Assembly: GCF_022827545.1 (NCBI RefSeq)
Contig: NZ_CP094669.1
Coordinates: 5,573,001 to 5,637,000 of the forward strand
Length of the DNA stretch: 64,000 bases
DNA from: Hymenobacter tibetensis
GTDB lineage: Bacteria; Bacteroidota; Bacteroidia; Cytophagales; Hymenobacteraceae
Reading direction: 5' to 3'
Shown here: one piece after another, positions 54,076 to 58,672 of the stretch
How the letters are laid out: every line of letters starts with the position of its first letter
Position numbering within the stretch: the first letter of the stretch is position 1
Made by a program: the position numbers and the translations under genes
The notes under the pieces: generated by a model
Databases searched by the model: none
The model's input: only the letters and a program-made list of their open reading frames with translations
What the model was told of the DNA's origin: nothing

Positions 54076-55155
54076 CTACGAGTTCATCACCTTGTTCTGG
54101 CGGTTGATGGACTCTAAATGCACCGCTTCGAGGTAGCTGTGCACGAACTCCGGCGAGATACCCACCTTCTCGGCTTGGCGCAGGCTGCGGTCCAGAATCT
54201 CGCTGTAGCGGTTGGTTTGCAGGATGGTGATGTCGTTGTCTTTCTTGTATTGTCCGATTTGCTGGGCTACGCCCATGCGGCGGCCGAGCAGCTGCATGAT
54301 TTCGGTGTCGAGCTGGTTGATTTGCTCGCGCAGGCCGGCTAGCGCGGTCTGGAATTCGCGCTGGTTGTTGGGCTCATGGCGCCATACCAAGTGCTCCAGC
54401 ATATCCTTGAGGGCGGCGGCGGTTACCTGCTGCTTGGCGTCGCTCCAGGCATTGTCTGGGTCGGGGTGCGACTCCAGCATCAGGCCGTCGAAATCCAGGT
54501 CAATGGACTGCTGAGCTACGGCGGCCAGGGTGTCGCGACGGCCGCAGATATGGCTAGGGTCGCAGATGATGGGCAGTTCCGGCATCCGGCGCTTCATCTC
54601 GATGGGCAAGTGCCACATGGGGGCGTTGCGGAAGTCGGTGTTGCCGTAGCTGGCGAAGCCGCGGTGAATCAAGCCCAGGTCTTTAAGGCCAGCCTTCGCC
54701 AAGCGCTCCACGGCACCCACCCACAGCTCCAGCTCCGGGTGAATCGGGTTTTTCACGAGCACTGGAATATCTACGCCCCGCAGCGCGTTGGCTATTTCCT
54801 GCACCGAGAACGGGTTGCCGGTGGTGCGGGCACCCACCCACAACACATCCACTTCGAACGCCAAACAATCCTCTACGTGCTTGGCCGTAGCTACTTCCAC
54901 GGCTACGGGCAGGCCCGTTACCTCTTTGGCTTTGCGCAGCCACGGCAGCCCTTTCGTACCGATGCCCTCGAACATGCCCGGCTTAGTCCGCGGCTTCCAG
55001 ATGCCGGCCCGCAGCATGTCTACCCGCCCCGTGGCAGCTAGTTCAATGGCGGAGGTTAGCAGTTGGTCTTCTGTTTCGGCGCTGCACGGCCCGGATATCA
55101 GCAGTTGCTTTTTGTCGATGCGCGCCGCTTTCGGCGTAGGAGCAGTTTGGTTCAT
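54076..55155 (-). CDS. Bifunctional DAHP synthase / chorismate mutase
   Basis: A 359-aa enzyme from the ATG at 55155 (MNQTAPTPKAARIDKKQLLISGPCSAETEDQLL). The first 260 residues are a DAHP synthase of the Kdo8P-related type (GPCSAET, AGIWKPRTKPGMFEGIG, RGFASYGN, PIICDPSHICGRRD). The last about 95 residues form a type II chorismate mutase (REQINQLDTEIMQLLGRRMGVAQQIGQYKKDN), which binds to and regulates the synthase in this kind of fusion. It catalyses the first step of aromatic synthesis and the chorismate-to-prephenate step. It is the last gene of the pheA-aminotransferase-tyrA operon, 70 nt after tyrA. Earlier in-frame codons (to 55449) lie inside tyrA. Confidence 0.95.
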   Translation of the reverse strand: MNQTAPTPKAARIDKKQLLISGPCSAETEDQLLTSAIELAATGRVDMLRAGIWKPRTKPGMFEGIGTKGLPWLRKAKEVTGLPVAVEVATAKHVEDCLAFEVDVLWVGARTTGNPFSVQEIANALRGVDIPVLVKNPIHPELELWVGAVERLAKAGLKDLGLIHRGFASYGNTDFRNAPMWHLPIEMKRRMPELPIICDPSHICGRRDTLAAVAQQSIDLDFDGLMLESHPDPDNAWSDAKQQVTAAALKDMLEHLVWRHEPNNQREFQTALAGLREQINQLDTEIMQLLGRRMGVAQQIGQYKKDNDITILQTNRYSEILDRSLRQAEKVGISPEFVHSYLEAVHLESINRQNKVMNS

Positions 55156-55225
55156 GGTATGAGGTACGTTTGTGATGTAGTGGATGTATGCTGCCGAGCC
55201 ACCATTTGGCAGTGCTTCGAATGGC

Positions 55226-56074
55226 TTATGAAATGATTTTGCGGATGTGGTTGGCTTGTTCAATGGAGTGCCGCAGCCCTTCGTAGTCTTCCTCGGCCAG
55301 CAGGCGGCGCAGTTCTTGGAGTTGCCGCAGGTGCTCGTCGAGCACATCCAGCACGTTGGTGCGGTTCTGGCGGAAGATGGGCACCCACATAGCGGGAGAG
55401 CTTTTCGCCAAGCGCACCGTCGATTCAAAACCGCCGCTAGCCAAATCAAAGATACGCTGCTCTTCTTTCTCTTTGTTTAACACCGTGAGAGCCAGCGCAA
55501 ACGAGGTAATGTGCGAGATGTGCGACACGTAGGCCGCGTGCAGGTCGTGGTCGGCGGCGTCGAGGTAGAGCAGGCGCATGGGCAACGCCCGAAACAGAGT
55601 TTCCACGGTTTGCACAGCATCCGGGTCGCTGCGCTGCGCATCACAGACCACCAAGGTTTTGCCGGCAAACAACTGCTGCACCGCGGCTTCGGGCCCCGAG
55701 TATTCGGTACCTGCCATGGGGTGAATGGCTACGAACCGCCCGCGGTGCGGATGGTCGGCTACGGCGGCCAGTAGCTTCTCCTTGGTAGAGCCAACGTCCA
55801 CCACCACCTGGCGGCTGGTAGCGGCATCGAGCACCTGAGGCAACACGCCGAGCATGGCATCCATAGGCACGGCCACTACCACTAAATCGGCGGCGGCCAC
55901 GGCCGTGGCCAGGTCGGTTTCAATTTCGTCGATCAAGCCTAGCTCCAATGCCCGGTGCGCGTGCTCTGTGCTGGCCTCCACCCCAATGAAGCGGGTAGCC
56001 AAGCCTTGCTGTCGGAGGCTCAGCGCCAACGAGCCGCCAATCAACCCGATGCCAATGATGGTTACTGTGGTCAT
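55226..56074 (-). CDS. tyrA: Prephenate dehydrogenase
   Basis: A 282-aa enzyme that oxidises prephenate to 4-hydroxyphenylpyruvate. The Rossmann motif is VTIIGIGLIGGSLALSLRQ at the very N-terminus. VVVDVGSTKEKLL and HPMAGTEYSGPEAA are typical, and the helical C-terminal domain includes DHDLHAAYVSHISHITSFALALT. I start at the ATG 56074, which puts GIGLIGG at residues 8-14. A second ATG at 56107 begins a 33-bp copy of the same start (MTTVTIIG) followed by LQD, giving an extra strand that does not fit the fold. It sits between the aminotransferase and DAHP synthase genes. Confidence 0.92.
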   Translation of the reverse strand: MTTVTIIGIGLIGGSLALSLRQQGLATRFIGVEASTEHAHRALELGLIDEIETDLATAVAAADLVVVAVPMDAMLGVLPQVLDAATSRQVVVDVGSTKEKLLAAVADHPHRGRFVAIHPMAGTEYSGPEAAVQQLFAGKTLVVCDAQRSDPDAVQTVETLFRALPMRLLYLDAADHDLHAAYVSHISHITSFALALTVLNKEKEEQRIFDLASGGFESTVRLAKSSPAMWVPIFRQNRTNVLDVLDEHLRQLQELRRLLAEEDYEGLRHSIEQANHIRKIIS

Positions 56075-56107
56075 GTCTTGTAGTCCGATGATGGTTACTG
56101 TCGTCAT
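56041..56107 (-). repeat. 33-bp tandem duplication at the tyrA start
   Basis: On the minus strand ATGACGACAGTAACCATCAT (from 56107) is repeated as ATGACCACAGTAACCATCAT (from 56074), exactly 33 nt apart. Both copies encode MTTVTII. The in-frame duplication gives two possible start codons, and only the downstream one leads directly into GIGLIGG. Confidence 0.85.
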
Positions 56108-56145: not shown

Positions 56146-57318
56146 CTACACGTGTACTTTGCGCGCCGCCACTATGCGCTCCACGGCTTTGCGAAGCACG
56201 GCTTCGCTCTGGCACAAACTCACTCGAATGAACCCGTTGCCGTTGCTGCCAAAGATGCCGCCCGGGGTAATGAATACGCGCGCTTCCTGCAATAGCTCGT
56301 CGCTGAGGGCGTAGCCATCGGTGTAGGCTGGCGGCACGGCGGCCCACACAAACAAGCCGGTTTGGGTAGGGTCGGGCTCACAGCCCAGCAGGTGCAGCAA
56401 CTCGAACACCACCTTACGGCGGGCACCATACACGGCGTTCAGCTCCGCAAACCATTCTGCGCCTAGCCCCAGTGCCGCCACGGCCGCCTGCTGCACCGGC
56501 AGAAACATACCCGAATCCATGTTGCTCTTGAAGCGCAGGACCTCCCGCAGCCAGTCGGCGCGGCCGGCCAGCAAGCCCACGCGCCACCCGGCCATGTTGT
56601 GCGACTTGCTGAGCGAATTCAGTTCCAAGGCCACTTCCCGTGCGCCGGGCACCGCCAGCAAACTCATGGGATTGTCGTTGAGAATGAAGCTGTACGGGTT
56701 GTCGTGGATCAGCATAATGCTATGCTGCTGGGCAAAGGCCACCAGGCGCGCCAGGAAGGCAGCATCGGCGCGGGTGCCGGTGGGCATGTGAGGGTAGTTG
56801 ACCAGCATCATCTTCACCTTGGTCAAGTCCGAAGCGGCCAGGGCGTCGAGGTCGGGGAGCCAGCCGGCCGCTTCGGTCAGGTCGTACTCGCGGATGGTGG
56901 CGCCGCAGATTTCTGCTACGGCCCGGTAGGTGGGGTAACCCGGATTCGGAATCAACACCACGTCACCGGCTTCCAAGAATGTCATCCCGATGTGCATGAG
57001 GCCTTCCTTGGAACCCAGCAGCGGCAACACCTCGGTGGCGGGGTCTAGGGTCACGCCGTAGGCCCGGCTATACCACTCGGCCACGGCTGCTCGCAACGCC
57101 GGAATGCCCTGGTAGCTTTGATAGCCGTGCGTGGTAGGCAGGGCAGCCGAAGCAGTAAGGGCTGCCGTTACGCTCGGGTGCGGCGGCAAATCGGGGCTCC
57201 CAATACCCAGGTTGATGATGTCGGCGCCGGCTTGGTTGAGGGCCGCAATTTCGCGCAGCTTCTGCGAGAAGTAGTATTCACCGGTGTTGGCTAGGCGCTG
57301 AGCGGTTGAAACGTGCAT
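56146..57318 (-). CDS. Class I/II pyridoxal-phosphate aminotransferase
   Basis: A 390-aa aminotransferase, MHVSTAQRLANTGEYYFSQKLREIAALNQAGADIINLGIGSPDLPPH. The PLP lysine lies in LNSLSKSHNMAGWRVG, and NYPHMPTGT corresponds to the family's NPxxPTG. By context it transaminates prephenate, phenylpyruvate or hydroxyphenylpyruvate to the aromatic amino acid. By sequence it resembles the LL-DAP aminotransferase and aspartate aminotransferase branch. It is the second gene of the operon, after pheA (134-nt gap) and before tyrA (71-nt gap). Confidence 0.9.
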   Translation of the reverse strand: MHVSTAQRLANTGEYYFSQKLREIAALNQAGADIINLGIGSPDLPPHPSVTAALTASAALPTTHGYQSYQGIPALRAAVAEWYSRAYGVTLDPATEVLPLLGSKEGLMHIGMTFLEAGDVVLIPNPGYPTYRAVAEICGATIREYDLTEAAGWLPDLDALAASDLTKVKMMLVNYPHMPTGTRADAAFLARLVAFAQQHSIMLIHDNPYSFILNDNPMSLLAVPGAREVALELNSLSKSHNMAGWRVGLLAGRADWLREVLRFKSNMDSGMFLPVQQAAVAALGLGAEWFAELNAVYGARRKVVFELLHLLGCEPDPTQTGLFVWAAVPPAYTDGYALSDELLQEARVFITPGGIFGSNGNGFIRVSLCQSEAVLRKAVERIVAARKVHV

Positions 57319-57452: not shown

Positions 57453-58283
57453 CTAGTAGTATTCGCCTCTCTGATAGGCACCCAGCACTTGCAGGTCGTC
57501 GGTGAGCAGGGTAAGTTCTTGCAGCAGCACCGGCAGCTGGCTGGCTTCCTCGAACTCGATATCGGCGTGGAAGTAGTACTGCCAGGTGCGGCCCGGCCGG
57601 GGGCACGACTGTAGTTTGGAGAGGTTGAAGTCGTGGCCAGCCACACAGGTCAGGACCCGGGCTAGGCTGCCGCGCTGGTGGTCGGTGTGGAAATATAGGG
57701 AGGCTTTGTTGGCCGAACTCGTGGACCGCTCGGGGTCTTGGCGCTCCAGCACCAAAAAGCGGGTGTAGTTTTCGGGGTCGGCGTGAATGTCGGGGGCCAG
57801 CACTTCCAGGCCGTAGAGGCGGGCGGCGGCTTCACCGGCCACGGCGGCAATACCGGTTTGGCTTCTTTCGCGCAAGTGCCGGGCGCTGAGGGCTGTATCG
57901 ACGGTTTCAACCAGCTGCCACGGATGCAGCGCCAGGAAATCGGCGCACTGCAACAAGGCCACGGGGTGTGAATGCACTTCTCTGATATCGGCTAGGGCCT
58001 GGCCAGGCAGGGCCAGCAGGTGCTGCCGGATGCGCAAGTAGACCTCACCCGTCACTTGCACCGCCGAGCGTTGCAGCAAACTGTAATTAGGTAGGATGCT
58101 ACCCGCAATGGAATTTTCGATGGCCATCAGCCCAGCGGCGGCGGCACCACTCGTCACCTGCCGCACCACTTCACTGAAGGTAGCGCACGGGGCAATGGCA
58201 GTTTCTGCACCGAAGTAGTGGCGGGCTGCCAGCTCGTGAAAGCTGCCCGCGTAACCCTGAATAGCAATGGCGGAAGAAGGCAT
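57453..58283 (-). CDS. pheA: Prephenate dehydratase
   Basis: A 276-aa enzyme converting prephenate to phenylpyruvate. The catalytic domain begins IAIQGYAGSFHELAARHYFG and contains GLMAIENSIAGSI and YTRFLVL (the TRF catalytic motif). The ACT domain at about 190-275 has GSLARVLTCVAGHDFNLSKLQSCPRPG. The Phe-binding ESRP motif of typical enzymes reads QSCP here, so feedback by Phe may be weaker. It has no fused chorismate mutase; that domain is on the DAHP synthase. It is the first gene of the operon and lies behind two attenuator modules (58344-58621). Confidence 0.95.
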   Translation of the reverse strand: MPSSAIAIQGYAGSFHELAARHYFGAETAIAPCATFSEVVRQVTSGAAAAGLMAIENSIAGSILPNYSLLQRSAVQVTGEVYLRIRQHLLALPGQALADIREVHSHPVALLQCADFLALHPWQLVETVDTALSARHLRERSQTGIAAVAGEAAARLYGLEVLAPDIHADPENYTRFLVLERQDPERSTSSANKASLYFHTDHQRGSLARVLTCVAGHDFNLSKLQSCPRPGRTWQYYFHADIEFEEASQLPVLLQELTLLTDDLQVLGAYQRGEYY

Positions 58284-58343: not shown

Positions 58344-58373
58344 AAGAAAAAGGGCTCCGGTGTGCGGGGCCCT
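58344..58373 (-). terminator. Attenuator terminator 2 of the pheA operon
   Basis: On the minus strand AGGGC-CCCG pairs with CGG-GCCCT (one C-A mismatch) around a CACAC loop, and the sequence ends TTTTTCTTG. It lies 26 nt after the stop of leader peptide 2 and 60 nt before pheA. Confidence 0.65.
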
Positions 58374-58399
58374 GAGTTTGCGGTGGTGCGGAGCGTTGG

Positions 58400-58483
58400 T
58401 CAGCAGCGGCAAAAACGGGCCTGGTTCTTTGGATAAAAGAACAGGTAATAAAAAAAGCTAAAAAAGGAAGTGAAGGAGCGCAT
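58400..58483 (-). CDS. Leader peptide 2, Phe/Tyr-rich (27 aa)
   Basis: A 27-codon frame from the ATG at 58483 to TGA at 58402-58400. It begins MRSFTSFFSFFYYLFFY (residues 1-17) and ends PKNQARFCRC. It has 8 Phe and 3 Tyr in 27 residues, most within residues 4-17. Its core codes for FFSFFYY, where leader 1 has FFGFYY, and the underlying DNA (TTTTTT-GC-TTTT...TATTAC) is nearly the same. It lies just after terminator 1 and before terminator 2, and so repeats the leader module. Known attenuators use such codon runs to stall ribosomes when charged tRNA is short. The start lies 14 nt after the T-tract of terminator 1. Confidence 0.75.
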   Translation of the reverse strand: MRSFTSFFSFFYYLFFYPKNQARFCRC

Positions 58484-58496
58484 GCGGGAAAGACGT

Positions 58497-58528
58497 AAAA
58501 AAAGCGCCTCTCGAAGTCGAGAGGCGCT
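58497..58528 (-). terminator. Attenuator terminator 1 of the pheA operon
   Basis: AGCGCCTCTC and GAGAGGCGCT form a perfect 10-bp stem (loop GACTTC on the minus strand), followed by a T-tract of seven. It lies 39 nt past the stop of leader peptide 1. It is placed inside the operon leader, upstream of pheA, so it would cut off transcription unless a competing structure forms. Confidence 0.85.
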
Positions 58529-58583
58529 GGAGTTTTCGGTTGAAAAAGCTACACGGCGGCTACTCGACTACGCGGAGGCGTAG
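58515..58583 (-). promoter_or_regulatory. Competing RNA structures of attenuator 1
   Basis: Minus-strand segments: CTACGC (58583-58578) pairs with GCGTAG (58573-58568), forming hairpin 1:2 over the last Tyr codon and the stop of leader 1. The overlapping AGTCGAG (58569-58563) pairs with CTCGACT (58521-58515) in terminator 1, forming 2:3. A ribosome held on the Phe/Tyr run would cover the first segment, free the second, and break the terminator. This is the classic 1:2, 2:3, 3:4 order. Confidence 0.65.
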
Positions 58584-58621
58584 AAGTAATAAAAGCCAAA
58601 AAAGTAACGGTTCTGGTGCAT
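58568..58621 (-). CDS. Leader peptide 1, Phe/Tyr-rich (17 aa)
   Basis: An 18-codon frame from the ATG at 58621 to TAG at 58570-58568. It encodes MHQNRYFFGFYYFYASA, with 8 Phe/Tyr in residues 6-14 (only Gly9 breaks the run). Codons are TAC, TTT, TTT, GGC, TTT, TAT, TAC, TTC, TAC. It is immediately followed by competing hairpins and terminator 1. It opens the transcript of pheA, aminotransferase, tyrA and DAHP synthase-chorismate mutase, which make exactly these amino acids. The gene is too short to call by length alone. Composition, position and structure together make it convincing. Confidence 0.85.
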   Translation of the reverse strand: MHQNRYFFGFYYFYASA

Positions 58622-58641
58622 GTGCTGGTAGCTTAACGCTG

Positions 58642-58672
58642 GCAAGGTGGGGAAAGAATTTCTAATAATCAA
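58642..58672 (-). promoter_or_regulatory. Probable promoter of the aromatic operon
   Basis: On the minus strand TTG (58672-58670) and CACCTTGC (58649-58642) are separated by 20 nt, close to the Bacteroidota -33/-7 pattern. The -7 box is weak at its first position (CA rather than TA). The start site would be near 58635, just before leader ATG 58621. Confidence 0.45.

Follow-up and report, generated by a model that had tools for sequence, protein, structure and literature searches.

The pheA operon of Hymenobacter tibetensis, as it lies in the 64,000-nt stretch of DNA analysed here (the window), is preceded by two complete leader modules, each composed of a short Phe/Tyr-rich ORF and an intrinsic terminator. 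Probably these are two ribosome-mediated attenuators placed in series behind one promoter and reading the same signal, the charging of tRNA-Phe and tRNA-Tyr. Such attenuators had been proposed in a preliminary description of this region, and their anatomy is supported at both modules by sequence comparison and folding models: (i) Phe/Tyr frames, (ii) terminators, (iii) covarying antiterminators and (iv) a computed contrast between a ribosome stalled in the leader and one positioned at its stop codon. Textbooks present ribosome-mediated attenuation as control in a single step.

Arrangement and conservation of the leader modules

The elements follow each other on the minus strand in the 5' to 3' order promoter-like element, leader 1, terminator 1, leader 2, terminator 2 and pheA (Table 1). 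The two Phe/Tyr-rich ORFs in front of pheA had been recognized before, with residue counts that are correct (residues 6-14 of leader 1, YFFGFYYFY, include 8 Phe/Tyr among 9), and the terminator postulated after each leader is present as a hairpin with a T-tract, the stability of terminator 2 in the window being modest. The presence of genes for prephenate dehydratase, an aminotransferase, a prephenate dehydrogenase and a DAHP synthase/chorismate mutase, each with Pfam matches, identifies an operon for Phe and Tyr synthesis, in agreement with the earlier assignment. The true start of the DAHP synthase/chorismate mutase fusion probably lies inside the ORF listed.

Table 1. Features of the pheA leader region and operon (positions in the window).
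Feature	Position	Strand	Remarks
Promoter-like element TTG-N20-CACCTTG	58643..58672	-	upstream of leader 1
Leader peptide 1 ORF	58568..58621	-	MHQNRYFFGFYYFYASA
P1 hairpin, module 1	58568..58583	-	CUACGC-CUCC-GCGUAG, last Tyr codon to UAG stop
Antiterminator 1, 5' arm	58555..58568	-	GUCGAG and following; partner CUCGAC at 58521-58516
Terminator 1 hairpin	58503..58528	-	-21.4 kcal/mol; 5' arm shared with antiterminator 1
Terminator 1 T-tract	58497..58502	-	six T; ATG 2 is 13 nt downstream
Leader peptide 2 ORF	58400..58483	-	MRSFTSFFSFFYYLFFYPKNQARFCRC; 8 Phe + 3 Tyr
P1 hairpin, module 2	58424..58442	-	GUUCUUU-UAUCC-AAAGAAC, Phe codons vs. Lys/Asn codons
Antiterminator 2, 5' arm	58416..58422	-	within leader ORF, codons past the Phe/Tyr block; partner GGGCC at 58372-58368
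Terminator 2 hairpin	58351..58373	-	-12.0 kcal/mol
Terminator 2 T-tract	58346..58350	-	TTTTC
pheA, prephenate dehydratase	57453..58283	-	PF00800, E 7.2e-55
Class I/II aminotransferase	56146..57318	-	PF00155
tyrA-like prephenate dehydrogenase	55226..56107	-	PF02153, PF20463
DAHP synthase/chorismate mutase fusion	54076..55449	-	PF00793, PF01817

For comparison between genomes, a module was defined as an ORF in which 5 or more of 12 codons are for Phe/Tyr, with a hairpin plus T-run within 130 nt. By this fixed criterion two modules were found in 80 of the 103 Hymenobacter-group (g1) genomes examined and in all three fetched genomes of the sister genus (g6), while 23 of the 103 carried one. The frames are thus kept as pairs in most close relatives, and their loss there, which according to the preliminary description would speak against the attenuators, was not observed. 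One of the 23 (L103 of genome G045) has lost the stop codon of leader 2, so that the ORF reads through the terminator region, and its RNA element keeps a match of 85.6 bits to the covariance model of module 2; this leaves 22 true single-module loci. The g1 set comprises 120 genomes, 107 of them with a prephenate dehydratase match, from which G095, G100, G108 and G115 (contig ends or fragments) were left out. It is taken as Hymenobacter because the named Hymenobacter loci bear the same modules (7/7 tandem), these seven being probably the same genomes as in g1 and not independent counts. Among the other family members examined, which were mostly the best-ranked of the matching genomes (3/4 in g6, 7/8 in g2, 6/34 in g5 and 4/15 in g4), a single module is usual outside g6 (g2 7/7, g4 4/4, g5 5/6), and one g5 genome, G188, has two.

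Thirteen of the 120 Hymenobacter-group genomes (G001, G003, G006, G021, G022, G043, G057, G060, G067, G088, G097, G098 and G117) gave no match to the prephenate dehydratase of the window, and G115 gave only a short fragment; G021 is also without a PF00800 match. Genomes of this kind may be Phe auxotrophs or may possess a replaced enzyme.

Short frames made of T-rich codons, such as those for Phe and Tyr, might arise by chance as low-complexity ORFs next to unrelated hairpins. When the 450 nt ahead of pheA in 103 genomes were subjected to dinucleotide shuffling (2060 shuffles), an ORF with at least 6 Phe/Tyr in 12 codons appeared at least once in 74 and twice in 6, terminators not being required. 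Such a chance origin, contradicted also by the conservation of the frames and by the covariation across relatives described below, has a negligible probability.

The promoter-like element upstream of leader 1 is presumably of the Bacteroidota -33/-7 type; the leader of the window lacks the strict TANNTTTG box. A relaxed pattern, TTG-N18-21-[CT]AN[CT]TTG, was chosen post hoc from these sequences, and its counts are descriptive: it occurs upstream of leader 1 in 56/83 tandem and 21/22 single-module loci (rates in shuffles 0.7 and 1.4%, respectively). From leader 1 to leader 2 it is present in 0/83 tandem loci, a pattern that other promoter types could escape; for a stricter version the corresponding counts are 22/83 and 0/83. 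The distance between T-tract 1 and ATG 2 has a median of 17 nt (range 5-30 nt in the 83 tandem genomes). With so short a gap and no promoter-like site of this relaxed consensus between the modules, RNA polymerase most likely meets both stops in a single pass, and the two complete modules, with their own terminators, form a tandem unit for one signal. Two promoters, with the attenuators acting in parallel, are made very improbable by the spacing and the missing intervening sites (judged by a relaxed consensus).

Alternative RNA structures and predicted response to ribosome position

The 5' arm of the terminator has a predicted pairing partner upstream in both modules, namely the segment directly past the stop codon in module 1 and the codons past the Phe/Tyr block in module 2. 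We applied an alignment-free permutation test, in which the energy of the duplex between antiterminator and terminator arm of each genome was compared with that of pairs swapped between genomes. The own duplexes were more stable in module 1 (-14.84 vs. -11.19 kcal/mol; 83 loci, 41 distinct) and in module 2 (-15.27 vs. -13.78 kcal/mol; 81 loci, 64 distinct), the latter after exclusion of L003 and L004, whose leader 2 ends early; 0 of 5000 permutations matched the observed value in either module, and the result stands with one row per distinct arm. No effect was seen for the control segments (two per module, four in all). The 22 single-module loci gave a weak signal in the same direction (301 and 66 of 5000 permutations).

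Taken one sequence at a time, the antiterminator energies were unexceptional against shuffled segments, with a median z of -1.3 for module 1 and -1.8 for module 2; 22/83 and 43/83 loci, respectively, lay at or below 5/100 shuffles. The single-module loci gave a median z of -0.5, with 0/23 at or below 5/100, and the window alone was equally unexceptional (16/100 shuffles for module 1 and 20/100 for module 2). As the energies are unremarkable within one genome, it is on covariation that the case for the antiterminators rests, and by this evidence a candidate antiterminator, mutually exclusive with the terminator, is present in both modules.

Each module also includes a small hairpin, P1, whose 5' arm is built from the control codons. 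When P1 of module 1 and terminator 1 were counted jointly, 97.1% of cells were paired (80 sequences) and 27 had changed on both sides, compared with a mean of 2.5 in shuffles, the number of pair types being less exceptional (51/500 shuffles). Pair 23/28 of this P1 is CG in 65 sequences, GC in 3, AU in 2 and UA in 2, and unpaired in 8. In module 2 the typical P1 is CUUCUUC/GAAGAAG, of which the window carries the variant GUUCUUU/AAAGAAC. Here 92.7% of cells were paired (80 sequences), with 24 double changes (shuffled mean 7.6); neither the double-change pairs (251/500 shuffles) nor the pair types (93/500) were exceptional. Kinship among the rows inflates all these covariation counts. The P1 hairpin of module 2 would account for the conserved Lys-Lys in leader 2. 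RNAalifold, applied to the module 2 alignment, returned the P1 hairpin only, since gaps shift the columns of terminator and antiterminator.

In the proposed mechanism, a ribosome reaching the end of the leader ORF would cover the 5' arm of the antiterminator, so that the terminator could form and RNA polymerase would stop. A ribosome stalled at the Phe/Tyr codons would leave this arm free to pair with the 5' arm of the terminator, and transcription would continue; the second leader would be reached only by transcripts past the first stop. Read-through of the pair would equal Q1 x Q2, so that leak is lowered multiplicatively and logarithmic gains are summed, provided that the two steps are independent. 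From this scheme we infer that stalling is the trigger, that termination actually takes place at both sites, that neither step depends on the other and that the response is steeper. Accordingly, one part of the earlier claim, that there are two stops in series, is upheld by the spacing and the lack of a promoter-like site between the modules, and the other part, that control is steeper, would follow from the arithmetic of a double attenuator.

The influence of ribosome position was modelled by masked-ribosome folding, in which the transcript was cut before the 3' arm of the terminator and the ribosome footprint was masked, with an assumed edge 12 nt past the first base of the A-site codon and equilibrium folding throughout. 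Over 83 genomes, the median probability that the terminator 5' arm is paired upstream was 0.83 (module 1) and 0.74 (module 2) at the best stall; for a ribosome placed at the stop codon it was 0.20 and 0.29, respectively. The best stall exceeded the stop-codon value in 83/83 genomes for each module, but a clear contrast (stall >0.5, stop <0.2) was obtained in only 39/83 for module 1 and 33/83 for module 2. The contrast is smaller in the window, with 0.80 vs. 0.37 in module 1 and at most 0.59 vs. 0.32 in module 2; the same procedure yielded 0.84 vs. 0.00 for pheL and 0.62 vs. 0.00 for trpL of E. coli. By these computed values, ribosome position may select the RNA structure in both modules.

Without a ribosome, the arm was still mostly paired upstream (medians over 83 genomes 0.74 for module 1 and 0.69 for module 2), and an untranslated leader would therefore read through in the folding model. 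The trp leader of the same genome as the window behaves in a similar way (0.73), and the value for E. coli trpL is 0.30; E. coli pheL, unlike the leaders described here, terminates without a ribosome in the model (0.04). A longer fold of module 1 of the window contains an extended 1:2 hairpin, though no protector hairpin is evident at the cut-transcript stage.

Stalls at most Phe or Tyr codons acted alike in the folding model, and both leaders contain both amino acids (means over 83 loci: leader 1, 3.7 Phe and 4.0 Tyr; leader 2, 4.9 Phe and 4.1 Tyr). A lack of either one would consequently relieve both stops, each module answering to Phe as well as to Tyr. The earlier suggestion that codon order decides whether shortage of both tRNAs or of either is needed is thus dispensable, both leaders being mixed. 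A division of labour, by which module 1 would respond mainly to Tyr and module 2 mainly to Phe and the pair would operate as a two-input gate, finds some encouragement in codon bias: the control codons of leader 1 end with Tyr in 76/83 loci, and leader 2 has Phe at -12 in 71/83 and at -13 in 64/83. The biased codons, however, double as arms of the P1 hairpins, so that pairing may explain the bias, and neither the mixed contents nor the equivalence of most stall positions fits such a specialization, which we regard as unlikely.

Origin of the tandem arrangement

The modules had been thought to be duplicates on account of nearly identical leader cores. The common core TTTTTT-GC-TTTT..TATTAC is indeed present, but much of this likeness follows from the Phe/Tyr codons themselves. 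Local alignment of one ORF to the other gave a median score of 22 vs. 15 for codon-shuffled controls (83 genomes), and only 51% of the pairs scored above the 95th percentile of the controls, duplication being a candidate origin.

In a midpoint-rooted tree of prephenate dehydratases (69 of 70 rows) the tandem state is spread through Hymenobacter. Fifteen single-module rows of the ...FTPPA (or FTPSA) type need one change and five rows of the ...SRAAVL type need two; the tree includes 15/16 and 5/6 of these two types, and L027, which has no readable protein, is absent. The single rows thus fall into no fewer than two distinct regions of the tree. The module 1 covariance model matched all 11 single-module Hymenobacter loci tested (of 22) with 67-91 bits, and the module 2 model gave at most 17 bits at the same loci; as the single modules match module 1 and not module 2, they appear to have arisen by loss of module 2.

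That 22 Hymenobacter-group genomes manage with a single module could also mean that only one module works where there are two, the other being a relic, or simply a terminator that reduces leak while its leader decays. The 11 loci that match module 1 would fit this view, as would leader 2 of L103, which is without a stop, and the lower stability of terminator 2 (median -14.4 vs. -17.0 kcal/mol, terminator 1 being more stable in 53/83). A relic, however, would hardly keep Phe/Tyr frames and covarying antiterminators, which are kept in both modules (83 and 81 loci), and we give this alternative little weight, less even than the division of labour. Two working attenuators are accordingly the preferred reading.

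Outside Hymenobacter, two Phe/Tyr ORFs were present in 10/10 Chitinophaga loci found (8/10 by the strict criterion); the other 63 named non-Hymenobacter loci had one module in 62 and none in one, where 162 nt upstream were examined. The upstream modules of Chitinophaga favour the module 1 model in 8/10 loci (exceptions L179 and L181) and the downstream ones the module 2 model in 10/10. The order is reversed in G188 (L117), whose upstream module fits the module 2 model (24.1 bits) and whose downstream module fits the module 1 model (29.8 vs. 15.7 bits). Single modules of other genera are mixed: module 1 is preferred in L162 (41.2 vs. 24.2 bits) and L110 (30.9 vs. 18.8 bits), and those of L161, L168, L172 and L209 are better or solely matched by the module 2 model. 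The reversal in G188 and the mixed single modules argue against a simple positional history. An order-wide scan with the PDT family (30 loci, L127 being wrongly anchored) detected Phe/Tyr ORFs close to pheA in three loci, L130, L133 and L134, and in no others; the ORFs of L138 and L139, far upstream of pheA, were disregarded.

In the ten Chitinophaga loci (L170, L179, L181, L185, L191, L193, L197, L211, L219 and L223) leader 1 carries a single Trp codon next to the Phe/Tyr block (FFW or YFW), and in the loci inspected this UGG lies inside a small palindrome, e.g., CUGGUACCAG. The Trp codon may therefore have a role in pairing and not in the sensing of Trp.

In the enzyme tree (77 rows), Hymenobacter and g6 lie beside Chitinophagaceae (97/94), at a distance from the three single-module Hymenobacteraceae included; G188 falls on the Hymenobacter/g6/Chitinophagaceae side (97/80), with a very long branch. 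The prephenate dehydratase of the window is 49-61% identical to its best Chitinophagaceae-type matches and 39-46% identical to the Hymenobacteraceae rows listed, g6 apart. The pheA operon may therefore have passed between Hymenobacter and Chitinophagaceae, and the tandem arrangement could plausibly reflect shared ancestry or have been transferred with the operon, separate origins being the alternative. A wider proposal is that an old double attenuator for one signal, a ribosome-based counterpart of pseudo-cooperative riboswitches, predates the split of the Hymenobacter and Chitinophaga pheA genes and was repeatedly reduced to its first module; this we hold to be a serious possibility, somewhat short of an even chance.

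Relation to other attenuators

Among the trp, his, ilv and pheA operons scanned, only pheA has a tandem leader. The trp operon is preceded, within about 450 nt, by one Trp leader (WWW or WW) in 13/13 Hymenobacter-group genomes, Trp-bearing ORFs farther upstream in several trp loci being taken as chance, and the his operon by one His leader, also in 13/13. One Ile/Leu/Val leader was recorded for the ilvD-bearing operon in 5/8 matching genomes and none by threshold in 3; no Thr/Ile leader was found upstream of thrA in 16 loci, where the flank scanned may stop short of the leader. Leader examples (L244, L259, L275 and relatives) are of the QAWWWPYGNSGRDSLCVR type for trp, have His-rich runs for his and are of the LLLVIIVIIP type for ilv. 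The tail of the trp leader past the Trp codons is long and conserved, like that of leader 2 of pheA. In G061, hisG is in two pieces (L266/L267) and ilvD in three (L278/L280/L281), due either to sequencing frameshifts or to real gene decay.

The module 1 model R1, run over 395 genomes of the phylum, matched 16, of which four are Hymenobacter-group genomes at pheA; the pheA motif is absent from the 13 weaker R1 loci in the other 12. Five of these weaker loci (L354, L357, L359, L361 and L363) precede genes resembling ilv/thr by eye and are probably other attenuators.

Candidate attenuators in some Bacteroidetes were reportedly described by Vitreschak et al. in 2004. For Flavobacterium psychrophilum, passages of PMC9723704 report strong indications that amino acid operons are attenuated through leader peptides, and name a conserved 5' element ahead of pheA that lacks an Rfam hit. 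Neither these passages nor those on the Bacteroid-trp motif (RF01692; PMC2864571) mention a tandem arrangement.

A close functional relative is pheL-pheA of E. coli (RF01859, Phe_leader), which shares the Phe-rich leader, the terminator, the stall/stop contrast and the pathway step. It differs in having one annotated leader, as opposed to two that both mix Tyr with Phe. Module 1 of the window scored 34.0 bits with RF01859, below the gathering cut-off of 55 bits, and no hit was listed for module 2 (E up to 10).

The leader of Salmonella mgtCBR holds two short ORFs that are both translated, and each of them forms an attenuator (PMC3641672). According to the sections of that paper matched here, the pair senses ATP and proline, acts additively, is termed a 'singular example' and is contrasted with a leader having two intrinsic terminator sites, a single attenuator being the norm in the control of nutrient biosynthesis (PMC3641672). 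Unlike this pair, as described in those sections, the pheA leaders read the same amino acids twice, each has its own terminator, and they belong to a biosynthetic operon. Tandem 'pseudo-cooperative' riboswitches, in the excerpts seen from their review, likewise consist of two complete switches in series for the same signal, for which a steeper, more 'digital' response is argued, but the sensors are aptamers (or T boxes) and not ribosomes on a leader ORF (PMC9481103). The terms 'leader peptide' and 'attenuat' have 0 occurrences in that review (PMC9481103). Further relatives, judged from abstracts or excerpts, are the rimP leader with two terminators (PMC2965389) and ermB, with translational attenuation by two leader peptides (PMC8274638); the sensitivity of ribosome-mediated attenuation has also been modelled (PMC1183508).

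Among the matches listed from open-licence full-text literature, which mostly does not cover subscription papers, tandem leader-ORF transcription attenuators appear only in Salmonella mgtCBR. This agrees with the earlier remark that duplicated modules in series had not been described in Bacteroidota: attenuation itself is known, and what appears to be new here, judged against these matches, is that two attenuators in a row probably read the same amino acids.

The double arrangement suggests that the operon is switched on and off more sharply than with the single attenuator found elsewhere, and, as closely related species offer double and single versions, the benefit of a second attenuator is directly testable. 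The findings further suggest that regulators coupled to translation have also evolved the series logic known from riboswitches, and that the amino acid operons of Bacteroidota may rely on attenuation more than curated RNA families show.
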